Source: a virus
Reading direction: 5' to 3' (one strand)
Virus record (IMG/VR): IMGVR_UViG_3300025652_000241
Span: 1 to 34,831 of that record
Length of the DNA: 34,831 nt
Numbering within the stretch: position 1 is the first letter of the stretch; each line of letters begins with the position of its first letter. Below the pieces are notes generated by a model. The model worked only from the letters and a program-made list of their open reading frames with translations, searched no databases and was not told the origin of the DNA. A program made the position numbers and the translations under genes. Below, in pieces: positions 1 to 25,471 of this stretch.

Positions 1-61
1 TTGAATCGAACCCAACCGCGAAAGAACGCGGTAACGAATTTAATGTATTTGTTAATGTCAT
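1..61 (-). CDS. Probable small heat-shock protein Hsp20 (N-terminal fragment)
   Basis: Only the first 20 codons lie in the window; the gene runs off the left edge. The visible residues, MTLTNTLNSLPRSFAVGFDS, match the style of IbpA/Hsp20 N-termini, in which a short variable stretch leads to a [ST]xGFD motif that normally continues into LF. Hsp20 proteins are ATP-independent holdases that keep unfolding proteins soluble, and homologues are known in T4-like aquatic phages. The start was chosen because it is the first ATG after a purine-rich AAGGAG (83-78), although the 16-nt spacing is long. An in-frame stop lies three codons upstream. The leader has three hairpins and hides this SD, as expected for a heat-shock gene. 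The identification rests on 20 residues and the leader, so it is probable, not certain. Confidence 0.6.
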   Translation of the reverse strand, partial: MTLTNTLNSLPRSFAVGFDS

Positions 62-161
62 TTTGTTTTATTTTGAACTCCTTATAAAAGCGAGTTATAT
101 TTTAGTAATTTGAGATCCTTTCGGCATCTCTTGTAGACACAAAACCATAGTGCGTCTATAC
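62..161 (-). promoter_or_regulatory. ROSE-like RNA thermometer in the hsp20 leader
   Basis: The roughly 100-nt leader between the late promoter and the ATG folds, by eye, into three successive hairpins. Hairpin 1: 158-151 pairs with 141-134 (8 bp, one G-U). Hairpin 2: 130-126 and 124-123 pair with 118-112, with a bulged G125 and a GAAA tetraloop. Hairpin 3: AACTC (96-92) pairs with GAGTT (80-76) and CTT (90-88) pairs with AAG (83-81), with a bulged G91 and the loop TTAT. Hairpin 3 buries the SD AAGGAG (83-78). The strand opposite it carries TCGCT with a bulged G, which matches the U[U/C]GCU signature that faces AGGA in ROSE elements of rhizobial hsp genes and enterobacterial ibpA. The SD-to-ATG distance of 16 nt is longer than usual. 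Melting of hairpin 3 on warming would expose the SD. Confidence 0.65.
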
Positions 162-167
162 AATATT

Positions 168-175
168 TATTTATA
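168..175 (-). promoter_or_regulatory. Late promoter TATAAATA of the hsp20-like gene
   Basis: Exact T4-type late box on the minus strand. Transcription would start near 161-162, immediately before hairpin 1. Unlike the other late boxes here, it lies over 100 nt from its start codon, leaving room for the structured leader. Confidence 0.6.
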
Positions 176-179
176 ACGA

Positions 180-266
180 TTAATCAGAAATTCTCTTCCT
201 TTTTCGAGCTTCACTTAGTTTCTTTTTATGTTCTTCAGCGTCATCTTCAGAATCAAAGGTTTTGTA
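180..266 (-). other. Open extension in frame with the S74 fibre gene, past its stop codon
   Basis: Directly after the TAA of the 267-980 gene the same frame stays open for 28 codons and then meets another TAA. The encoded stretch (YKTFDSEDDAEEHKKKLSEA and then a basic end) is highly charged and protein-like but has no start codon. It may be a former C-terminus cut off by a nonsense change, a readthrough product, the remnant of a small gene, or chance. The hsp20 late promoter overlaps its downstream side. Confidence 0.25.
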
Positions 267-980
267 TTAATTACTCTCTGGTAATTTTCCTTTTAACTCT
301 TCTACCTCAGCGTCTAGACGCTTAACCTCTTCAATGAGGTATGGGATAAGCTTAACGTAGTCGACTGATTTAAATCCATCAGGTCTTTCATATACTAATT
401 CTGGAAGTACCTTTTCGACCTCCTGAGCCATTATACCGAAGTCTTTACCTTCTCTGTCCGCTTCTTCTTTCCAGTCAAAGGAATAACCAGTTAAGTTTTT
501 GACTACTTCTTTAGAGTTTACAATCTTGTTTACATTCTCTTTTAACCGTTCATCGGAAGAGTAGAATGCTATAATGTCAGAACACCCTCTAATAACGCCT
601 GTCACGGTGAGCACGCCATTACCGCATATGTTACTATTTGAGGTAAGGTTACCACACGCAAGGATACTTTGTTTGGAAGTGATACCACCATCTGCAATAT
701 ACCCTGCTGTCGTCCGGAAATTGGTAGCACACACAGTATTGGCATTGATGATGCTGTGCGCGCACATATTAATTCCTCCGGAACCTCTTATCTGTAATTG
801 GCCGCAGATAAACCCGCCGTTACCGGTAGTTCTGAGATAGAGACTTGATTGCTGACCTATACCATCTGTAACGGTGGTATAGTTAGTAGGATCAAGGGTC
901 TCATTCGTAGTAGCGCACGCTCCTAAATTGAGTATGGATTGGTATGTATCGCATATATTTTTTCCAGTAAATTCGGCCAT
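267..980 (-). CDS. Tail fibre/spike protein with C-terminal S74 self-cleaving chaperone
   Basis: A 237-residue virion protein. Residues 141-200 carry the intramolecular chaperone (peptidase S74) signature: SSDERLKENV, then GYSFDW and DFGIMAQEVEKVLPELV, followed by a C-terminal coiled coil. In this family the domain drives trimer folding of fibres or spikes and then cuts itself off by a Ser-Lys dyad five residues apart; S142 and K147 fit. Cleavage would leave about 141 residues in the virion. That part is unusual in holding eight cysteines (10, 22, 59, 73, 84, 109, 119, 133), with none in the chaperone, which suggests disulfide or metal cross-linking. It has its own late box ATTAAATA ending 5 nt before the ATG. 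The first residues (MAEFTGKNICDT) show no recognised domain. Confidence 0.85.
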   Translation of the reverse strand: MAEFTGKNICDTYQSILNLGACATTNETLDPTNYTTVTDGIGQQSSLYLRTTGNGGFICGQLQIRGSGGINMCAHSIINANTVCATNFRTTAGYIADGGITSKQSILACGNLTSNSNICGNGVLTVTGVIRGCSDIIAFYSSDERLKENVNKIVNSKEVVKNLTGYSFDWKEEADREGKDFGIMAQEVEKVLPELVYERPDGFKSVDYVKLIPYLIEEVKRLDAEVEELKGKLPESN

Positions 981-985
981 ACAAA

Positions 986-993
986 TATTTAAT
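986..993 (-). promoter_or_regulatory. Late promoter ATTAAATA, S74 fibre gene
   Basis: Box ends 5 nt before the ATG at 980, which places the predicted transcription start on the A of the start codon. Confidence 0.65.
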
Positions 994-1007
994 CAAAGAA
1001 AACGAGA

Positions 1008-2879
1008 TTAAAAGAGTACTATATCACTATATGGGTACTTTAGATTGGTCACATTAAACTCTTGACGCTTCATGATGCTTAGCTGGTAATTATATATCCT
1101 TTCAATACATCTATTGAATATCTGAGGTGTCAAAATCTCATTCACACCAACAAAATTATCATAGGTTGATTCCTGTACTACAGCACCTGAAATACTTGAT
1201 ATGTCTGTAAGTGTAAGGATCTTTTCCGTGCTATATGCTAAATTAAATTGAAATTGAAGATTTGCAGCTAGATTATCATGATTGTATAGTAGTTTCTGCA
1301 GACTCTTATTAAAAGTGATATTATTAAAATATTGTTCTTTAACTAATATATCTACTCTATCGTATATTTTAAAATTAGTATCCTCTAATAGATTAATGAG
1401 ATTATTAGGCTCATTAAACCTCATTAGTCTATCTCTACCTCTATATTCACCATCCACTTTAACAGTATCCTTATTGAATATGAATAGAGAATCTCTATTC
1501 TCATTCTCTGCAAGAATCTTAGCGTCAAATATTCTACGATCAGTAGTATCAAGGCCAATATTGGGTAGATCAGTAAAGTTAAAACTACCCACTAACTCAT
1601 CCGAACCGTCATACACCATAAACTTGAATATGTTAGTATCAGTGATAATATAATATATGTTACTATCATTCTGCGAAAATAATATACGTGTAGGTGTTCC
1701 AGGTTCACTCTTTCCTGTAGCTGGTAGATGTAGCACCGCAGAGGATCTAAATAATGAATCGATTTCTAATATAGTAAAATCATCAAATACAATAAACAGC
1801 ACACCAGTTATAGGGTTAACTGCGAAGTCCTTTACTTGCTTTTCCGCGAAAAGGTTGTTATTATACTCTCTTAACCTAGCTAAGTTATCTCCTAGAACAA
1901 TCACCGATCTGCGGCCTTCATTCCATGTGTAGATCTCATCGTTGTAATAATACATATGACTAACGCCTGAAAGTGTACTTTGTCCAGCAGTATTTAATTT
2001 AAATCCCCCCGCATTTAAAAGATCAAAAGAAGATGTACCAGGGTCTTGATCATTAATAACAGGGTCAATATATAGCCTATAAATTTGGTTATGAAAGGAA
2101 TCACTGACATACAATGTATCCATATCATTTGTTGTGATATCAGTAATATTTTGAAATGGCTGTGAGAATGTACCATCCGCCTTATCGGTAGACAATATAT
2201 AAGTGGCTGTACTACCTGTATCAGGGTCGTTCTGATTTATATATATATGAAGGGCAGATGGAGTGAAATATATCGACGAGAATAGCCCAGGCGTCTCTAC
2301 CGTTAACGGGTTACTCGAGTTATTATAGTTACCTATTAATTCAAAACCTCTAGTATTCTCAAGGTTAGCAGCGCTTGTACTCGTATACACGCTGTTCAAA
2401 TCTGTAGTGTAGTTTAAGTACTCCGTAGGGGTATTGCCCGTTACAGCGATAAACCCGGTGTAGTTAAATGGTAAGTGACTATTACGCACGAATGCGTAGT
2501 TATAAAGATCTAAGAAATTTTCATATAGTTTAGTAAACTTAGTATTAATAGAGTTCTGGTTAATAAACTCACTTGGCTGAAATCTTAGTTGCTCGAGGTC
2601 GTTTGTAAGTACCAGTTCGCCATAAGCGCTTCTATTGAAGAAACCTCTCTCTATAATAAAATTACCTCGAACGTTATCTACAGCAGTTAAGGTACTGGTA
2701 TTACTATCAATCACTCTGCCCCGGTACACCTGATTACCAGCTACTGTATAGTAACCTATGTAATCTTCTCCATCGAAAGTGAAGGCATTACCCTCCGTAT
2801 ATTTAAAGACATCTACAGGTACTTCAGTCCCCCGAAGATTGATAGACATGCCATTGCTATTTAGTGTATACTGCGACAT
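1008..2879 (-). CDS. Large virion protein with beta-propeller-like repeats
   Basis: A 623-residue protein with no signal peptide or membrane segment. The middle contains NHL/beta-propeller-like stretches such as TDITTNDMDTLYVSDSFHNQ, LFIVFDDFTILEID and IYYIITDTNIFKF, spaced like propeller blades; the C-terminus (MKRQEFNVTNLKYPYSDIVL) looks like a docking tail. It lies next to the 1161-residue protein that shows the same blade-like style, so both are probably tail, baseplate-periphery or fibre-base components. The ATG at 2879 is preferred over a TTG one codon upstream because TATAAATA (2886-2893) ends 6 nt before it. The precise role is not recognisable. Confidence 0.7.
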   Translation of the reverse strand: MSQYTLNSNGMSINLRGTEVPVDVFKYTEGNAFTFDGEDYIGYYTVAGNQVYRGRVIDSNTSTLTAVDNVRGNFIIERGFFNRSAYGELVLTNDLEQLRFQPSEFINQNSINTKFTKLYENFLDLYNYAFVRNSHLPFNYTGFIAVTGNTPTEYLNYTTDLNSVYTSTSAANLENTRGFELIGNYNNSSNPLTVETPGLFSSIYFTPSALHIYINQNDPDTGSTATYILSTDKADGTFSQPFQNITDITTNDMDTLYVSDSFHNQIYRLYIDPVINDQDPGTSSFDLLNAGGFKLNTAGQSTLSGVSHMYYYNDEIYTWNEGRRSVIVLGDNLARLREYNNNLFAEKQVKDFAVNPITGVLFIVFDDFTILEIDSLFRSSAVLHLPATGKSEPGTPTRILFSQNDSNIYYIITDTNIFKFMVYDGSDELVGSFNFTDLPNIGLDTTDRRIFDAKILAENENRDSLFIFNKDTVKVDGEYRGRDRLMRFNEPNNLINLLEDTNFKIYDRVDILVKEQYFNNITFNKSLQKLLYNHDNLAANLQFQFNLAYSTEKILTLTDISSISGAVVQESTYDNFVGVNEILTPQIFNRCIERIYNYQLSIMKRQEFNVTNLKYPYSDIVLF

Positions 2880-2885
2880 CAAAAG

Positions 2886-2893
2886 TATTTATA
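2886..2893 (-). promoter_or_regulatory. Late promoter TATAAATA
   Basis: Perfect T4-type box, 6 nt before the ATG at 2879. A second TATAAATA-like box (CTATAAATA) lies about 40 nt further upstream with no start codon at the expected distance. Confidence 0.7.
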
Positions 2894-2948
2894 ATAAAAA
2901 ATCAATCTTCAAACGAATTTAAACTATTTATAGTGAGACTGTATTAAT

Positions 2949-5900
2949 CTACACCGGTGAAGGTACGTCGCGGAGTATCTCCACACTATCACCTAGATCA
3001 AAATTATTACCTATACTATAATCATAGACGACCTGAGTAACATTCTTCGGCATGAAGGTTTTAATTTTTGATGTAAGAGTGTCGGATAGTATCTGACCCT
3101 CGTTACTCGTCAGTTTACCGTTCTTAATATATATCTTCACTCTATTTGAGAGGCTACCTGGTATTGTGTAGGCAAATAAGTTATCAATAGTCTCAACGTT
3201 GTTGCGTGTACCGCTTGTTATATCGAAATTTATAGGATCAATTTCAGTGCAGTCTAAGTACTGATAGTCAATTAAGTCCTGAAAGAGTTGAGTATCATAT
3301 GCTCGAAAGTTCTTAACAGTCATATATTCAGCGTTGAAGCTCTGATTAGTAATAAAGTTTGATACCGGGTCAATACTATAGTTCGGTTGACCTATGAAGA
3401 AGGCATTATTCAAATAATTCTTAAGAGGTCTCATTCCTACAGTTATGTCAATATTAGCTACCTCTGCACCATTTACAGTTACTGTTGTCTTACCAGTTAA
3501 TAAGTCGTAGTTCATCGTAATACAATTTTTACCTGAAACAATATTTGGTATGACTATTATCTCGCTGTTATCATCAAGGGCTCCAACAGAACCACCGTAG
3601 TTAACAGACCAGTTGCCACTTGCTCGGGTGTCCCAATTAACATTCTCAGTTTCCCATACTCTATCAATAGGAGCGCCGGCGTATGCGTTATCAAATCTAG
3701 TTAATATGCAGAACTTGTTCTCGTATTCCTTGAAGGTTTGCTCTGAGCTATATATATTAGTAGGGTTTTCAAAGTTTCCTAATTTAGTCCCGAAGTCATA
3801 ACCAAGGTCAGCTCCTGTTATCGGTAGTGCATATGATGATAACGTATATCCGCTCGATGTAGTATGTGTGAGTGTGATCTTATCTGCTATTAACTTACCA
3901 TTAATATCCTTTGAGAACACTAGTGGTTTAGTTATATAATCTTCCGTAACAAAGTCAATCTTATGACCTGAAACTGCGGAGGTAGATAGAGTGAAGCTTG
4001 AGAGTAACTCTCTGCCAGTACTAAAAACTTGGAGTTTATTATCAGTCTGTATATAGAGCTCTTCGTTAAAAGAATTAATATCCCATATTTTGGTATTTGT
4101 CGAGAGTGCTAAGAATGTAGTATCTTGTATAAAGTCTTTAAATATTACTTTATTTGACATACCGTAATTACTACCTGTGCCGCTTATAGCTGCTCCTAAG
4201 GTATCATTTAAATTAACACCTCTCAACCCTCGCATTGTACCGTATACAGTATTATTATTTCGTCTGATTACGGACTCATCAGCAGGCTCTAGTGATACTG
4301 CCGCTGGTTGGCAGATTAAGGTTTGTGTATCTAAATCCCAAGCGCCTGGCGCAACCGAGTTAATATCTTTAATTAATACCTTTGAACCAGCGCCATACAT
4401 TACACGTGAACTATATTCGGATTCGATAATATCTTGCACAATATCATCAGTATTTTCCTTCTGAACATCACCTGTATAGGCTACGCGCATGATCTTACCA
4501 CCAGTAGGCCCGGTACCGATAATTACTATATCTGTGCTTTTACTGACATATAAAATATCTGTAATAGCTGTCAGGGATGGTATCGCCGCAGACCTGGTCA
4601 GGTTAAAGTCTGTATCGTAATAGTAAATGGTATTACCCTCATAAAGATATATGAGCGGGGTAAAGTAGAAGTTCTTAATAATGCCTAGACCACCATTAAA
4701 TAGGTTACCTACTAATTGAAATGCTTTCGGATCCTCGATATTCGGTATATCCAATTCAAAAGAGATATTTACCCCGTTGACCTCTCCACGGTTATCGGCA
4801 AGTATGTTGAATGTATCATACGCAGATGCATTGAGAATTAATGTATCGGTAAGAGGGCCAACATAAGCTGGATCCTCATTCCGCCTAGGTGTAAAATTTT
4901 GCTTAACTAATCCACTAGAGAGCTTATTTAAGATAGTGGATACGGAGTCAGGACCTACACGTGCGTAGTAATATACACCGCTTGGTTCGAGCATTAATGT
5001 ACTATTGATATCAACGTAGTTCAGTTCACTGAAGCCTAATGTATCAACTATCTGATCAATTACAGAAGTTGACTCAGATAGTGGTATTGGAGGATTATTT
5101 AAATTACCTGACACTGCCTCTACACCGGTGGTGTTTTGAGGTATGTAATATCTATCATACCATATACCTGTATCTCCGTCATCATATAACCAGCTACATA
5201 AGTATTCTCCATTTTCATTAAGATTATTAACTACATCTTCTCTATTACCAACATCCTTATATATCCTATCACTAAAATAAGGTGATTGTGCTGCATATGC
5301 ACCAGCAGCTTGTAGACCTGCATCATTTAGGTTTATCTGAGTAAAGGGTAATATGTTATCAGGTAATACAAATTTTGTAAAGCTATCAGGGCGGAAGTTA
5401 TACTCCACTGTATGAAAGTTGTACTGTAACTTTAAAAATTCCTCCGATACCTCCTGCGTCTCACTATTTAGTATAGATGAGTACTGTCGCTGCATTTGCT
5501 TATCATCAAACGGTAAGTTCTTATTAACGTTATGGTGATTAGAGATTTGATTTTTTAGATTAAAATAATTTAAATTAGCATATATAATACCATCCTTGAG
5601 ATAATTATCTTCATAATTACTATACATTACAAAGTTATACTTACTAGCACTCAGTGTCTTACTATCATCAATATCTGCACCGGAGGTATAGTACACGAAG
5701 TTATTACTTTTATCTAAATATTTTGTATTCGAAGACCCGCTGTTTGCTAATAATATTGTACTATTTTTATAATCATCAGAATCCGGATCATGTAGAGCAG
5801 ATACCGCACCACCATTTATACTAATTAAACTAGATGTTAAAGCACCCGTGGCAGTTTCGCCTTGTATAGATAGCCGCAAATTACTATCACTACGAATAGC

Positions 5901-6434
5901 GTTAAAGTAGGTAGTTATCTCTAACCCGTCAGCGTTGGGTATTGTATCAAAAACTACCTGATCTGTTTCGGTATGATATGCGAGGTATTTTCTTTTGACG
6001 CCGTCATACGTAAATACGCTACAATATAAGTCATTATCAATAGAGGATAATTGAACCGTAAATAATTGCGAACTAGCAGTGGTAAATAATGACACGCTTG
6101 CCGCACTTGAGAGGGTACTATTATTTTTATCTATCGTAAGGTAACCAGCAGGTTCATTGGCAAAATGTACTGTTGTTGCGAAGGTGTTTGATATTTCTTC
6201 TGGTTGATTGAGATCAAAAATATCTTGTTCAGTCTTAGGGTTTGTTAAATATGTAGTGGTATAGTTTTTATTTAATATATCATTAGCACTCAACAGAAAG
6301 TTATGCTCCATTAGGTTCATTCCCTGTACGGTGGTGAATTCACTTGGAATAGATAGGTCTAAAGCTCTATCAGGATCTTCCAGCATAAAGTTAACTGGCT
6401 TGATATCACTATAACTCTTTATCTCAACAGGCAT
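2949..6434 (-). CDS. Giant virion protein (1161 aa), probable baseplate/tail-fibre base component
   Basis: The largest gene in the window. The N-terminus MPVEIKSYSDIKPVNFMLED is followed by about 450 residues rich in Tyr, Asn and Ser, then blade-like segments around residues 600-900 (for example TAITDILYVSKSTDIVIIGT and KIWDINSFNEELYIQTDNKL) that suggest a beta-propeller, then a concanavalin/LamG-like section near WSVNYGGSVG and ITMNYDLLTGKTTVTVNGAE, and a short C-terminal domain ending near LGDSVEILRDVPSPV. No transmembrane segment or catalytic motif is visible. It shares style and strand with the 623-residue protein downstream, 70 nt away. The ATG is fixed by the box ATTAAATA, 8 nt upstream. 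Function is inferred from size and neighbours only. Confidence 0.7.
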   Translation of the reverse strand: MPVEIKSYSDIKPVNFMLEDPDRALDLSIPSEFTTVQGMNLMEHNFLLSANDILNKNYTTTYLTNPKTEQDIFDLNQPEEISNTFATTVHFANEPAGYLTIDKNNSTLSSAASVSLFTTASSQLFTVQLSSIDNDLYCSVFTYDGVKRKYLAYHTETDQVVFDTIPNADGLEITTYFNAIRSDSNLRLSIQGETATGALTSSLISINGGAVSALHDPDSDDYKNSTILLANSGSSNTKYLDKSNNFVYYTSGADIDDSKTLSASKYNFVMYSNYEDNYLKDGIIYANLNYFNLKNQISNHHNVNKNLPFDDKQMQRQYSSILNSETQEVSEEFLKLQYNFHTVEYNFRPDSFTKFVLPDNILPFTQINLNDAGLQAAGAYAAQSPYFSDRIYKDVGNREDVVNNLNENGEYLCSWLYDDGDTGIWYDRYYIPQNTTGVEAVSGNLNNPPIPLSESTSVIDQIVDTLGFSELNYVDINSTLMLEPSGVYYYARVGPDSVSTILNKLSSGLVKQNFTPRRNEDPAYVGPLTDTLILNASAYDTFNILADNRGEVNGVNISFELDIPNIEDPKAFQLVGNLFNGGLGIIKNFYFTPLIYLYEGNTIYYYDTDFNLTRSAAIPSLTAITDILYVSKSTDIVIIGTGPTGGKIMRVAYTGDVQKENTDDIVQDIIESEYSSRVMYGAGSKVLIKDINSVAPGAWDLDTQTLICQPAAVSLEPADESVIRRNNNTVYGTMRGLRGVNLNDTLGAAISGTGSNYGMSNKVIFKDFIQDTTFLALSTNTKIWDINSFNEELYIQTDNKLQVFSTGRELLSSFTLSTSAVSGHKIDFVTEDYITKPLVFSKDINGKLIADKITLTHTTSSGYTLSSYALPITGADLGYDFGTKLGNFENPTNIYSSEQTFKEYENKFCILTRFDNAYAGAPIDRVWETENVNWDTRASGNWSVNYGGSVGALDDNSEIIVIPNIVSGKNCITMNYDLLTGKTTVTVNGAEVANIDITVGMRPLKNYLNNAFFIGQPNYSIDPVSNFITNQSFNAEYMTVKNFRAYDTQLFQDLIDYQYLDCTEIDPINFDITSGTRNNVETIDNLFAYTIPGSLSNRVKIYIKNGKLTSNEGQILSDTLTSKIKTFMPKNVTQVVYDYSIGNNFDLGDSVEILRDVPSPV

Positions 6435-7135: not shown

Positions 7136-7147
7136 TATTTATTTATG
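7136..7147 (-). promoter_or_regulatory. Overlapping late boxes CATAAATA/AATAAATA
   Basis: Sense sequence CATAAATAAATA; depending on the box used, the spacing to the ATG at 7131 is 8 or 4 nt. The TAA stop of the upstream 651-residue gene (7143-7145) is part of this element. Confidence 0.5.
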
Positions 7148-9098
7148 ACGCTGATGACAATATACCATTAATGGTCAGGTTTTGAATTTCCATGGGCATA
7201 TGACCTGAATATGAAATACCTACCTTGATACCTGCTGGCAGTTGTTCTAAGTTAAATCCTGTACTGAAGACTTGTTGAGTTTCGTATATGCCATTTTCGC
7301 GTATATACAGTACGACATCTTGTAGATTTCGCTTAAATCCAACTCTCAGAAGCTTCCAGGTATCGTCGATAGTTGAATAACCATCTTCAGGTACAACTGC
7401 GCCCTTAAAGTCAAACGTGCATAGTTCTGCTGACCTAGTACTCTGCAATGCAGATAATGCTCTAACACTGAATACCTTTGATGATAGCGTCTCTGTACCG
7501 CTATTATAGAATCCTTCTTGGCTACCTGATAAGCTAAAAGCCCCACCATTATCTACACAAGCTAATACCAGCGCACCGGATAGGAATGAACCGAAAGATG
7601 TAGGGTCAGTCAATCTTATAGCTGGTTGGGTTAGATCTGTTAAAATACTCGCACCTGGACCGTCAAGTCTATAAGGTTCATTTGATGATATACCGAATTT
7701 GGTCGTAAATCCTGATAGTGTTAAATCTACTGTACTAGCTGTAGATAACTCGTATGTATTAGAACTGTTATTTGTAACATACCATGTTGGGAGCTCCCAC
7801 GGAAATAGACCACTAGCGGAAGATACAGTAGTAAAGAAACAGTTCGAACTGCTACCCGGCTCGGCTACCGTATATCTAAACTCCCATCCATTTTGAGGTT
7901 TACCATACCTAGGATTATTGTACGTGTATCTGAATTCAGAAGCGCTAGCTGCATCAACCCATACAGTATCTGCATTCCATCCTGCACTAGTGACGTCATC
8001 GTCTAAATCTTTATATACAAATAAGGTTCCGGAACCACCGGCAGTTGTACCAGGACCAGCAGTCCAAGAAGAGTCATTCCGACGAACATGAATCTCTGTT
8101 AAGCCGTTATTTCCACCTAGTGAATTAACTCCTGCATCAACAATTGATTTATTCACATAGCAATTAACCCTCGTTAAGGCTAGCACGCTGCCTCGATCAC
8201 CTGGGAAACCGGCAGTCGGCTGCGCAAACGCATTTGCTCCAATACTTGTTACACTACTTGGAATAGTTATCGATGTGATACCGCCCCCGTCGTCAAGAGT
8301 GCCAGAGGTTGCAAAGGCCGCTTGACCAATAGTTATAACACCTTCAGGAATTATTACTTCACCTTCTAGCTTCTCCATTTCGTAAAATGCTGCATCTCCT
8401 ATATTTACCAATCCACTATCTAAACTTATTGATGTAAATCCCGTACCTTGAAAGGCTTGAGTGCCAACATCAGTTACACTATAAGGTATTAGTAATTCCG
8501 TAGAATTTAATCCGGAAGCTACGTTCGAATATGTAAAGGCTTGGAAGCCAACTACAGTACAGCTTGTTCCAATTTCTAAGCGAGTCGCAGTCGGGTAAGA
8601 TGAGCCGCTAGTGTCCCAGTTATCTGGTATATCTGTTGCTATGGAAACTACTGGAGTACCACTCGTATCATATAATACTGTTGGGGTTGTAGTTACAGTA
8701 GGTGTATACTCTAAGTTCTTGTAATATGTGTTGCCTCCGCTTAGGAATATATTACCAGGTACAGGTGCAACATCAAAAGCAGAAATTGCCGTGCTACGTG
8801 AAGGACCGTCAACGCTGGAAAAGTTCGACGTATCTACCGACGCATCAAAGAGATATAGACAAAGGTTTTCAAACTCATTAGAGAAATTATAACCGAGTGT
8901 ACCTGTTGGATTCTGACGCGTAGGTTCAAGCTCTAATAGACTGCCTCCAAAAGAACCTCCTTGAAGCCTCAGCGACCCGAGATCTTCTTGCTCGTCATTC
9001 GTACGTACTAAAGATACAATCAGATCTTCCCTAGGATCAAATACTTCATCGTATAAGACTGTACTACTAAAATGGTATATAGACGTTCCCTTGCTCAT
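7143..9098 (-). CDS. BspA-type leucine-rich-repeat adhesin with flanking beta domains
   Basis: A 651-residue protein. Residues 1-150 form a beta-rich N-terminal domain. Residues about 170-340 hold LRR_5 (BspA/Treponema-type) repeats recognisable by IPYSVTDVGTQAFQG, IPEGVITIGQAAF and IPSSVTSIGANAF. The C-terminal third is LamG/concanavalin-like (WKLLRVGFKRNLQDVVLYIR and then VGISYSGHMP). LRR_5 domains bind proteins or glycans and occur in surface adhesins, so a distal receptor-binding role is likely. The segment DIPDNWDTSG...LEIGTSCTVVG is shared with the LRR proteins at 27200-30203, showing common descent. CTTAAATA ends 6 nt before the ATG. Confidence 0.75.
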   Translation of the reverse strand: MSKGTSIYHFSSTVLYDEVFDPREDLIVSLVRTNDEQEDLGSLRLQGGSFGGSLLELEPTRQNPTGTLGYNFSNEFENLCLYLFDASVDTSNFSSVDGPSRSTAISAFDVAPVPGNIFLSGGNTYYKNLEYTPTVTTTPTVLYDTSGTPVVSIATDIPDNWDTSGSSYPTATRLEIGTSCTVVGFQAFTYSNVASGLNSTELLIPYSVTDVGTQAFQGTGFTSISLDSGLVNIGDAAFYEMEKLEGEVIIPEGVITIGQAAFATSGTLDDGGGITSITIPSSVTSIGANAFAQPTAGFPGDRGSVLALTRVNCYVNKSIVDAGVNSLGGNNGLTEIHVRRNDSSWTAGPGTTAGGSGTLFVYKDLDDDVTSAGWNADTVWVDAASASEFRYTYNNPRYGKPQNGWEFRYTVAEPGSSSNCFFTTVSSASGLFPWELPTWYVTNNSSNTYELSTASTVDLTLSGFTTKFGISSNEPYRLDGPGASILTDLTQPAIRLTDPTSFGSFLSGALVLACVDNGGAFSLSGSQEGFYNSGTETLSSKVFSVRALSALQSTRSAELCTFDFKGAVVPEDGYSTIDDTWKLLRVGFKRNLQDVVLYIRENGIYETQQVFSTGFNLEQLPAGIKVGISYSGHMPMEIQNLTINGILSSAS

Positions 9099-11032: not shown

Positions 11033-11040
11033 TATTTAGT
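11033..11040 (-). promoter_or_regulatory. Late promoter ACTAAATA overlapping a stop codon
   Basis: 5 nt before the ATG at 11027. The TAA that ends the 609-residue gene (11036-11038) is the TAA within this box. Confidence 0.65.
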
Positions 11041-12865
11041 ATGTTTTATTTATAACCTGACCTGAACTTACAGTATCACTAGTACCGTCGCCCCAATCAA
11101 TGATAACATCACCACTTGATGTGGTTATCTTGAAACCTGTAATTGTTGAGCCTCCTGGTGAATCAAAACGCCAGAGTGCTTCATTACTAGGCCACACTCT
11201 TGTTGAATCAAGATAAGCCGCCGTGACTTGAAGAGCACCAACCTTAAGATTATCAGCTAAATTTAGAACTGGTGATGTATTTGGCGCTACCGGTGGTTGT
11301 ATTGCTACGACTCTAAAAGTAGTACTTGTACTTGAATTACTTGGGTTTCCACCGCCGACGGCGCTGCGGAATGTCGACTGCAATATATTGGAAGAGCTAT
11401 TCCAACCACCGCCGCGGTATACGCGACTTTCGGTACCGAATTCATTATTACCATCATGTGCACTCTCTAGCCACTCCCATCCATTACCGCCTTGAGCCAT
11501 CGTACCATACGGACTAAGCCCGCCGGCTAGATCTACATCAGCAGGACCTGGTGGGTTTGGATTCACTCCGTCAATGTATACCGCAGTGTCAGGGAGTGTA
11601 CCCTCGGTTGTTGTTGCTGGAGCACTATTGCCTCCTGTTGGGTATGTATAATACACTCCCCCACCATAATATGCTGCTTTATACCACTCATCTTCACTTG
11701 GCAAAAAGTACTTAGCATCTCTATGCCTAAAGAGATTTTCACCACCTAGTTGCCAGGCATCAGCACTATCCCAAGGAGTAATATTACTAGCAATATCATC
11801 ATCAAGAAATAGATATGCTGGCAATCTAGACTCTTTAATATTGAGCCAGTTTACATATCTCGCACACTCATTCCAAGTTACGTCTGTTGCTGGTTTATTA
11901 GCACCACGACTATCTTTTGTAATAAGTGTGTTCGCGTTAATTGGATCGGCATTATAAGCATCAATCTCAGACTCAGGAGCTTCGAACTTACTTATTTGGT
12001 ATTCGTAACTAACAGCACCATACCCAGTAGTGTCATCGACATTACTAGTATTAGCAATTGTAACAAATTGATTCGGCACTAGTGGTCGCGGAGGCGCCGC
12101 TGTTGATGCGACACGAAACCCGAAGCCTTCATTCTCACCCGTGGGTGAAATTTGGTTACGGTAGCCCTTTTGAAGAAATACTGAAGTACTCCCCCAAAAG
12201 CCGCCGCGGATGACACGAACTCCATTAGTATCAATGTTTAAACCGTTCGATGTCGATTCGTTCCACTCGTACGTATTACCACTTTGGCCCATCGTACCGT
12301 ATGGACTAAGACCGCCAGCTTGATCGACATCAGCAGGACCTGTCAGCGTCGCTCCGTATACCGCAGTATTAGCAGCTGTACCTCCACTTGTTGTTACTGG
12401 GGCACTATTGCTTCCTGTTGCATAGGTGTAATATACACTACCGTTATAATATGCTGCTTTATAAAATTCATTCTCGCTTGGTAGGAAATACTTTGCATCC
12501 TTATGCCTAAATAAATTTTCCCCATCTAATTGCCAAGCATCGGCGCTATCCCAAAGAACTAAATTATCATTAGATCCTGTGGTAGTAAACCTGTACGCTG
12601 GTTGTTCACCTTCCTTAGTATTAAGCCAATTAACATACCTCGCACACTCATTCCATGATGCTAAGGTTGCTGGTCCATCAACTCCAGCGCGATCACTTAT
12701 TGTAATTGGTGTAGCAGCGTTAGCTGGATCAGCATTATAAGCATCAATATTACTTTCACGAACAGCATACTTACTTATTTGATATTCATAACTGACCGCA
12801 CCGTACCCAGTGGTGTCATCGACATTACTAGTATCAGCAACAGGTACAAATATTAAATCACTCAT
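11036..12865 (-). CDS. Adhesin with two tandem FGE-sulfatase/C-type-lectin-fold domains
   Basis: A 609-residue protein. Domain 1 (about 8-255) and domain 2 (about 268-520) are homologous: each opens with TSNVDDTTGYGAVSYEYQIS, continues through WNECARYVNWLN, WDSADAWQL, LFRH-DAKYFLPSE and GGLSPYGTM, and ends in RVIRGGFWG...GFGFRVAS or RVYRGGGWN...TFRVVAI. This is the formylglycine-generating-enzyme fold, a C-type-lectin-like scaffold, but the catalytic cysteines near the RGG(S)W segment are absent, so it should bind and not catalyse. The last 85 residues include a PKD-like DWGDGTSD. FGE-fold C-termini are classic targets of diversity-generating retroelements; no reverse transcriptase is visible here. 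The start follows the upstream stop by one base. Confidence 0.8.
   Translation of the reverse strand: MSDLIFVPVADTSNVDDTTGYGAVSYEYQISKYAVRESNIDAYNADPANAATPITISDRAGVDGPATLASWNECARYVNWLNTKEGEQPAYRFTTTGSNDNLVLWDSADAWQLDGENLFRHKDAKYFLPSENEFYKAAYYNGSVYYTYATGSNSAPVTTSGGTAANTAVYGATLTGPADVDQAGGLSPYGTMGQSGNTYEWNESTSNGLNIDTNGVRVIRGGFWGSTSVFLQKGYRNQISPTGENEGFGFRVASTAAPPRPLVPNQFVTIANTSNVDDTTGYGAVSYEYQISKFEAPESEIDAYNADPINANTLITKDSRGANKPATDVTWNECARYVNWLNIKESRLPAYLFLDDDIASNITPWDSADAWQLGGENLFRHRDAKYFLPSEDEWYKAAYYGGGVYYTYPTGGNSAPATTTEGTLPDTAVYIDGVNPNPPGPADVDLAGGLSPYGTMAQGGNGWEWLESAHDGNNEFGTESRVYRGGGWNSSSNILQSTFRSAVGGGNPSNSSTSTTFRVVAIQPPVAPNTSPVLNLADNLKVGALQVTAAYLDSTRVWPSNEALWRFDSPGGSTITGFKITTSSGDVIIDWGDGTSDTVSSGQVINKTY
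11290..12865 (-). repeat. Tandem duplication of the FGE/CLec domain
   Basis: Copy 1 is encoded roughly by 12100-12845 and copy 2 by 11295-12060. The domain cores stay similar in protein and DNA (for example taccgtatggactaagaccg at 12294 against taccatacggactaagcccg at 11501), while the 3' part of each copy after RGG has diverged strongly. Confidence 0.7.
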
Positions 12866-23777: not shown

Positions 23778-25406
23778 TTACATCATTCCACCCATGGGTG
23801 AGCCCATTTCATGAGGTGCTTCGGCGCTAGCTGATGTGGGCTCATTTACAATTAAACATTCAGTAGTTAATAGCATTCCGGCGACTGATCCTGCATTCTG
23901 CAGAGCCGATCGCGTTACCTTTGTAGGGTCAACAATACCAGCTTCAAGTAAATCGACGTACTCATCTGTCGCTACATTATAACCTAGCCCTAATTCTAGA
24001 ATCTTAAGAACAATTTGTGACCCATCGACGCCAGCATTCTTGCATAGCTGTCTAATTGGAGCCTCAACAGACTTCTCAACTAATCGAGCACCGATAGCTT
24101 CATCACCTTCAAGGCGAGTAGCTGCCTCAGCAATGGCGCCCTTAGCTTTAAGCAGTGCAGTACCGCCACCAGGTACAATACCCTCTTCTACAGCCGCTCT
24201 TGTTGCTGCGAGTGCATCATCGACTCTATCCTTCTTCTCCTTCATTTCAGGTTCTGTTTGAGCACCTACATTAATAACACCAATACCACCCGTTAGTTTA
24301 GCTAACCGCTGTTGTAGTTGATCACGGTCGAAATCAGATCCTGATTGCTTAATCATTTCTTTAATTAGATCGACACGTGCTGCAATAGCTGGTGTATTAC
24401 CTCTACCGTCTACTATAGTAGTAGCTTCGCGAGTGATCGTTACCTTCCGAGCTTTTCCAAGATGTTCGAGTTTAATGTTTTCAAGTCGAAGTGTATCATC
24501 ACCAGTTACAACGGTGCCATCTGTAAGTGCTGCAATATCGTAGAGTGAGTCGCGGCGACGGTCTCCGAACCCGGGTGACTTAACTGCAGCGACGTTCAAT
24601 GTACCTCTTAACTTATTTACAACTAGTGCCGAGAGAGCTTCACCTTCAACATCCTCCGCGAGAATGAGTAGAGGCTGATTCTTCTTAGCAACAAGCTGTA
24701 GCAGTGGTAGTAGTTCATTTAGGTTAGTGATCTTTTTCTCGCATAGCAGAATTAGAGCATTATCAAACGCTACATCCATACTCGCCTCGTTTGTTACGAA
24801 GTGCGGACTAAGATAGCCTCTATCGAATTGCATACCCTCGACAACGTTCAATGTAGTTTCTAACCCAGAGCCTTCTTCTACAGTAATAGTACCGTCACTA
24901 CCTACCTTCTCCATAGCATCAGCGATAATATCGCCAACGTCTTTATCCCAGTTAGCAGATACAGTCGCAATCTGGCGAATGTCATTCATATCTTTAACCG
25001 GCTTGCTAATTGCTTTAATGCTCTCAACAGCTGCAGCTACTCCTTTATCAATACCTCTTTTAACAAATACCGGGTTAGATCCAGCTGCTACGCTCTTGAG
25101 GCCTTCCTGGTATATTGCCTCGGCAAGTACCGTAGCAGTTGTCGTACCATCCCCAGCACTATTAGCAGTACGGCTGGCTACTTCATGCACCATCTGTGCA
25201 CCCATGTTCTCGAATGGATCTGTTAATGAGATTTCCTTAGCGACCGAAACACCGTCTTTAGTTACAGCAGGTACACCGAATGACTTCTCAATCATTACAT
25301 TTCGACCTTTAGGTCCTAACGTAACCTTAACGGCTCTAGCTAGCGTCTTAACACCAGCCAGGATCTTTCTACGACCTTCATCGTCGAATAAAATTTGTTT
25401 GCTCAT
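23778..25406 (-). CDS. groEL: Chaperonin GroEL (Hsp60), full length
   Basis: A 542-residue chaperonin, close to the 548 of E. coli GroEL. It keeps TLGPKGRNV and [11 protein letters not shown] (apical nucleotide-binding segments, residues about 29-60), [12 protein letters not shown] (about 86-97), the family signature [16 protein letters not shown] (about 404-419), and a C-terminal MGGMM tail. It would fold proteins as a tetradecamer with a GroES-type lid; none is seen in this window, so it may use host GroES or a phage co-chaperonin elsewhere. The start [10 protein letters not shown] at 25406 is used, 6 nt after CATAAAATA; 15 upstream codons would cover the promoter. Its late promoter ties it to virion protein folding. 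Confidence 0.95.
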
Positions 25407-25412
25407 ATATAG

Positions 25413-25421
25413 TATTTTATG
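25413..25421 (-). promoter_or_regulatory. Late promoter CATAAAATA of groEL
   Basis: Box with one extra A, 6 nt before the chosen ATG at 25406. No CIRCE-type inverted repeat is visible. Confidence 0.55.
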
Positions 25422-25471
25422 GGTAAAAATCAAAAAATCAATAGTACACACTTATATTTTATGGTAAATAA

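Follow-up and report, generated by a model that had tools for sequence, protein, structure and literature searches.

A probable ROSE-type leader that sequesters the SD of phage small heat-shock protein genes

ROSE elements are defined as leaders of small heat-shock protein (sHsp) genes that form two to four hairpins, with U[U/C]GCU set against the SD around a bulged G (PMC11182007, PMC4166951). In the papers covered, only three RNA thermometers are named in phages, those of lambda cIII, SPbeta blyA, and a sigma-70 leader (PMC11182007); according to this 2024 paper, the blyA thermometer had only one predecessor in phage genomes, and the paper itself contributes the sigma-70 FourU element. The FourU systems of SPbeta blyA and of the gut Caudoviricetes sigma-70 gene resemble the leader described here in being phage elements with a hairpin-sequestered SD, but they carry the FourU motif, serve other genes, and have neither a ROSE signature nor an hsp20 gene (PMC10586365, PMC11182007). 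The lambda cIII leader is also temperature-dependent; as cited in PMC4166951, it alternates between two folds and hides the RBS when the temperature is high, and it differs in both gene and logic. The genome paper of phage Melnitz reports a glutamine riboswitch, and its passages on hsp20 mention no leader element (PMC9004378). Our search, made largely in open-access literature, returned no report of ROSE or any thermometer on phage hsp20, and a prior description is possible.

We analyzed a virus record of 34,831 bases (IMG/VR record IMGVR_UViG_3300025652_000241), referred to below as the window. All elements of the leader lie at its left end on the minus strand. The original prediction, made from the sequence alone, described a perfect late promoter box followed by a leader of about 100 nt with three hairpins, and this layout was reproduced throughout. 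The T4-type late promoter box TATAAATA is an exact match at 175–168 (−), and RNAfold gave three hairpins and nothing else. Hairpin 0 (158–134, −) has 8 bp and is an extra 5′ hairpin of the window's clade. Hairpin 1 (130–112, −), GAGAU-G-CC-GAAA-GG-AUCUC, has the predicted GAAA loop and its own bulged G (G125). After an A+T-rich linker of 15 nt on the same strand comes the SD-sequestering hairpin (96–76, −), AACUC-G-CUU-UUAU-AAG-GAGUU, in which G91 is bulged. Its 5′ strand carries the U[U/C]GCU motif as UCGCU (93–89, −), which pairs around G91 with AGGA of the SD AAGGAG (83–78, −), as had been claimed. The ATG of hsp20 (61–59, −) stands 16 nt past the SD of this hairpin, the spacing originally described. 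RNAfold output for a slightly longer stretch had, in addition, a small number of marginal 5′ pairs. The leader fold was more stable than dinucleotide shuffles, with z scores of −2.7 and −2.5 (1 of 200 and 3 of 200 shuffles equally stable). A purine-riboswitch match in the leader was dismissed as chance, given its 20.7 bits against a gathering cut-off of 37, an E value of 1.4, and many non-standard pairs.

The coding start of hsp20 in the window (1–61, −) amounts, as originally noted, to 20 codons before the contig ends, and this 20-residue fragment alone gave no match in Pfam, PHROGs, or phage tblastn. We therefore turned to relatives, which were fetched from IMG/VR with a degenerate DNA pattern for PRSFAVGFD. 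This yielded 16 contigs (L098–L113), 15 of which encode complete proteins of 141–143 amino acids starting M(T)(L/I)TNTLNSLPRSFAVGFDS, whereas L103 begins inside the gene. The window's 20 codons match the N terminus of these full-length proteins in 15 of the 16 contigs, and over window positions 1–131 the identity to L099 and its sibling contigs is 99%. Pfam HSP20 (PF00011) was found in the clade relatives with E values of 6e-14 and 2e-14, bearing out the prediction of an hsp20-type gene. The SD-ATG gap of 16 nt recurs in six relatives (L099, L100, L106, L109, L110, and L113); L098-type leaders have a normal gap. Hairpin 0 is confined to the window's clade, and although its sequence differs among the window, L099, and L098, a hairpin of 8–9 bp stands there in all three.

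The surroundings of the gene point to an exchange. Window positions 1–298, the last part of the upstream gene included, are collinear with L098 and L102, and this stretch is collinear with T4-type phages that carry a clamp loader and RegA. Positions 289–5978 are 75–81% identical to L002–L005, neighbors found via the S74 tail protein, which have no hsp20 at this place. The gene upstream of hsp20 in the window differs from that of sibling phages. The S74 tail gene stops at 267, and after it remains an in-frame stretch, YKTFDSEDDAEEHKKKL... (window 181–298), that matches the C terminus of the 84-residue gene which in L109 and L099 precedes hsp20. In L102, hsp20 follows an unrelated 150-residue gene with the same ending as the S74 gene (..KGKLPESN*). 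This junction thus seems to be where the upstream neighbor of hsp20 was swapped. Because ...KGKLPESN*TAATTAATA is common to L102 and the window, the junction speaks for real gene exchange over assembly error; the left end appears to be a recombinant locus, a chimeric contig being less likely. Elsewhere the window carries a second chaperone besides Hsp20, a GroEL chaperonin gene at 23778–25451 (−) (PHROG 5725, E 4e-169; Pfam Cpn60, 1e-73). A protein with a sulfatase-modifying-factor (FGE) domain (11036–12865, −) and a BspA-type leucine-rich-repeat protein (7143–9098, −) lie in a presumed structural region.

We then asked of the relatives whether the fold itself is conserved. Because MAFFT failed to align the SD hairpin correctly across 49 leaders, a covariance model, R1, was built from seven equal-length C48C1-like leaders. 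Searching 444 kb with R1 yielded 62 matches, and 61 lie directly before hsp20. The match at L109:307, inside a clamp-loader gene, is false and still contributes 1 of the 62 rows in the alignment of R1 matches (A4) and in a second model, R2. Although trained on no relative from the window's clade, R1 recovered L098 (E 0.02); the window itself was not among its matches at E up to 1. In A4, 96.7% of cells were paired, compared with 77.6% in shuffles and 46–57% when the alignment was slid, the rows being related rather than independent events and the model-fitted alignment leaning to the model's structure. Two-sided changes occurred in 12 of 17 pairs (156 cells), and none of 500 shuffles reached any of these measures. 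The homologue of hairpin 1 takes 97 forms among the relatives, and all nine of its pairs covary. Given the size of the effect, the covariation throughout hairpin 1, and the slid controls, there is little doubt that the leader fold is under selection. R2, whose training included one clade relative of the window (L098), matched the window at 69–134 (−) with 30.7 bits and E 1.4e-5, the only match at E up to 10 in 34.8 kb, and also recovered further hsp20 leaders. A search for the element by DNA pattern gave two matches, in L006 and L007, both by chance and inside unrelated ORFs; an alignment of nine diverse Hsp20 proteins held no block conserved enough for scanning.

The element is far more widespread than the original prediction knew. 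Phage isolates and three IMG/VR scans supplied 140 distinct 60-nt hsp20 leaders spanning cyanophages, Melnitz-like phages, pelagiphages, C48C1-like phages, and the window's clade. The set includes the window and L016, an unverified Pseudomonas record very close to bacterial ROSE_3. Start codons were picked by SD quality and not by the U[U/C]GCU motif. As controls we took 234 SD-bearing leaders of other ORFs in these loci, the ORFs being mechanical calls rather than curated genes. The pattern [TC][TC]GCT...AGG[AT] before the start codon was present in 139 of 140 hsp20 leaders compared with 6 of 234 controls. A motif-free structure test, requiring a bulged-G SD hairpin with at least five stem pairs, was passed by all 140 leaders and again by 6 of 234 controls. 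Fisher p values were about 1e-94 to 1e-96 (1e-96 in the structure test), for leaders that share descent and are not independent events. In this conserved hairpin, the SD forms the 3′ strand.

The sole motif miss among the 140, S-TIM5, is instructive for the pairing: in CCACGCTTTTTCAAGGTGG, AGGA has become AGGT and the partner UC has become AC, with the bulged G kept. Changes on both sides of the stem, as in this case, agree with the expectation that relatives would keep the SD pairing through compensatory change. They also bear on a different account of the conserved TTGCTTAA before the SD, namely that it is a DNA element, the MotA box of a T4-type middle promoter, and not RNA structure. The box is given as TGCTTtA in a passage of the Melnitz genome paper (PMC9004378), and TTGCTTAA is found in most Melnitz-like leaders. 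Such a promoter, however, would start transcription inside the coding region; the window, cyanophage, and S-TIM5 versions (TCGCTT, ACGCTT) lack the box yet keep pairing and bulge; and the partner bases covary with the SD strand. We reject the MotA account on these three grounds and consider it highly improbable.

Twelve further isolates were inspected: S-PM2, Syn9, ACG-2014f, S-N03, S-RIM44, S-CAM3, S-8S56, S-H34, Bellamy, AG-345-F15, Pseudomonas jumbo phage 30-3, and Salicola SCTP-2. R2 matched 11 of these 12, all outside its training, including S-PM2, Syn9, and the jumbo phage. Salicola SCTP-2 gave no R2 match; by eye, CUG-CCU-AAU-AGG-AG lies over its SD. The jumbo phage 30-3 belongs to Arenbergviridae, a group distant from the T4-like phages of the sea; its match is clear (34.5 bits, E 7.6e-7; L358, 521–576), and the gene behind it, annotated as hypothetical, is an Hsp20 relative by tblastn. 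An hsp20 locus of the cyanophage type, its leader identical to that of L225, lies on a contig of a Nonlabens xiamenensis genome (L342) and is probably phage DNA in a bacterial assembly. Synechococcus phage S-CREM1 has a glutamine riboswitch (L014, 776–874) a short way upstream of its hsp20, so that two RNA elements are neighbors there.

How do these leaders compare with the ROSE families? The Rfam models to which the original prediction had looked for confirmation (RF02523 and RF01832) gave no match in the window. On the phage relatives other than L016, ROSE_3 and ROSE_2 scored 26–37 bits against gathering cut-offs of 43 and 65, exactly at the leaders. Among these were sub-threshold ROSE_3 matches at L009, L115, L193, and L008 and a ROSE_2 match of 26.2 bits to the S-N03 leader, far under its cut-off of 65. 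The leaders resemble ROSE_3 (RF02523, here represented by the Pseudomonas-type L016) in anatomy. Both precede an sHsp gene, of which the window holds the first 20 codons; both have a first hairpin of the form AUGCC...GGGU with a bulged G, to which hairpin 1 of the window corresponds; and both end in a hairpin that sets U[U/C]GCU against AGGA around a bulged G, with the start codon right after. The number of hairpins, three in the window and two in most relatives, falls within the range for ROSE, and the two-sided changes in A4 are of the compensatory kind. The phage leaders are unlike ROSE_3 in their phage genomes, the late promoter at the hairpin base, shorter and A+T-rich stems, and scores below 43 bits. 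Because they have the features of ROSE yet score below the Rfam cut-offs, we regard the phage elements as a divergent ROSE branch that standard annotation misses.

As to origin, bacterial IbpA-type genes nearest to Melnitz Hsp20 had the core motif in 71 of 80 cases under a permissive test, and the closest ones were matched by R2. Most likely, the element came with an IbpA-type gene from proteobacteria and was kept in almost all hsp20-carrying myoviruses. Two "Campylobacter phage" records (MG065691.1 and MG065686.1) encode a protein that agrees with IbpA of E. coli at every residue (100% identity), a sign that these records contain DNA of that bacterium.

In 108 of the 140 leaders, only 1–6 nt separate the 5′ base of hairpin 1 from the end of a late box (TATAAATA, TATATATA, or a shorter cyanophage form); the window has hairpin 0 in this position next to the box. 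Late boxes are no more frequent in the window than expected by chance (6 compared with 5.8), and the box at 175–168 is meaningful because relatives keep it at a fixed distance from the first hairpin, a finding that strengthens the proposed T4-type late transcript. Transcription from T4 late promoters starts a few nucleotides past the box, which would put the first base of the RNA at the foot of the hairpin. By this geometry the window transcript is predicted to start near 162, a few nucleotides downstream of TATAAATA.

Hairpins at the very start of a late transcript might simply be a constitutive brake on translation, or a feature of RNA stability or of the start site, without regulated opening. 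The inferred start at the hairpin base would suit this, as would the predicted stability of the window hairpin, which in isolation has an estimated melting temperature near 68 °C. Against it, a brake could be built more simply as a perfect stem, yet the leaders retain the bulged G and U[U/C]GCU; within these loci the element is hsp20-specific; and its anatomy is that of bacterial ROSE elements. We therefore think a constitutive feature unlikely, and that the leader is probably a ROSE-type translational switch on the phage sHsp gene.

For such a switch, repression at rest and opening by heat are suggested by analogy, since characterized ROSE elements behave so. Folding predictions agree in part. 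In the 60-nt leaders at 25 °C, the median unpaired fraction of the SD was 0.09 compared with 0.38 in controls (p 2e-18). Over the full predicted leader at 20 °C, the SD was clearly closed (<0.3 unpaired) in only 51% of leaders, and some SDs, for example that of L009, were predicted to be open. For the window, the nearest-neighbor model kept the SD closed up to 50 °C, so melting within the habitat range is not predicted by the energy model. The same model placed the melting of the SD hairpin of the ROSE_3-matching L016 near 75 °C, and for that reason its absolute temperatures are not trustworthy. The 16-nt SD-ATG gap of the window is unusual and counts against the switch reading. Of the outcomes that would have refuted the interpretation put forward originally, two of three were examined, a downstream gene lacking an Hsp20 domain and loss of the SD pairing in relatives, and both results favor it; the ROSE-like reading is supported, with control by temperature as its predicted part.

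A serious alternative, by analogy with E. coli, is that the protein and not the heat is sensed. E. coli IbpA represses its own translation via its 5′ UTR, an sHsp leader that conforms to a thermometer; the repression is protein-mediated and needs R93, basic residues at 97/98, and an aromatic residue at 34 (PMC10474464). In the phages, free Hsp20 would bind its own leader and block translation until misfolded or aggregated protein titrated it away, and temperature would act only indirectly. Among the 174 phage Hsp20 proteins compared, all have the aromatic residue at 34 and 126 have R93; within the window's clade, L098 and L099 combine R93 with basic residues at 97 and 98, positions that in the window itself lie past the contig end. 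Many of these phages live at nearly constant temperature, which also favors a protein signal. The key R93 is nevertheless only partly conserved: K93, which inactivates E. coli IbpA, is present in 48 of the 174 proteins, including the whole C48C1 group, and there the RNA element is still kept. The basic residue at 98 is mostly lost. We consider autoregulation possible but rather doubtful. The contrast between K93 in the C48C1 group and R93 in the window's clade offers a ready test between heat and protein inputs.

For the ROSE-type switch, the following sequence of events can be proposed. Late transcription would start at the base of the leader, and the nascent RNA would fold into two or three hairpins. 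In the last of these, a structure backed by covariation, pairing of the SD with U[U/C]GCU around the bulged G would block ribosome loading. The weak pairs beside the bulged G would open on warming or on protein-folding stress of the infected cell, and Hsp20 would be made on demand in the late phase, during the folding of much virion protein. A broader proposal, which we offer tentatively and with more doubt than confidence, is that the leaders form a near-universal, virus-specific ROSE branch acting as a late-infection protein-folding sensor. Its RNA would start at the hairpin base, and translation of Hsp20 would set in once heat or accumulating misfolded virion protein opened the leader or titrated Hsp20 off it.

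Being short and easily moved, the leaders lend themselves to immediate tests in reporters in E. coli and in isolates such as Syn9, S-PM2, and Melnitz. Should they prove to be temperature-responsive, RNA thermometers would be standard equipment in some of the ocean's most abundant viruses, and the temperature of the sea would be tied directly, at the molecular level, to infection.
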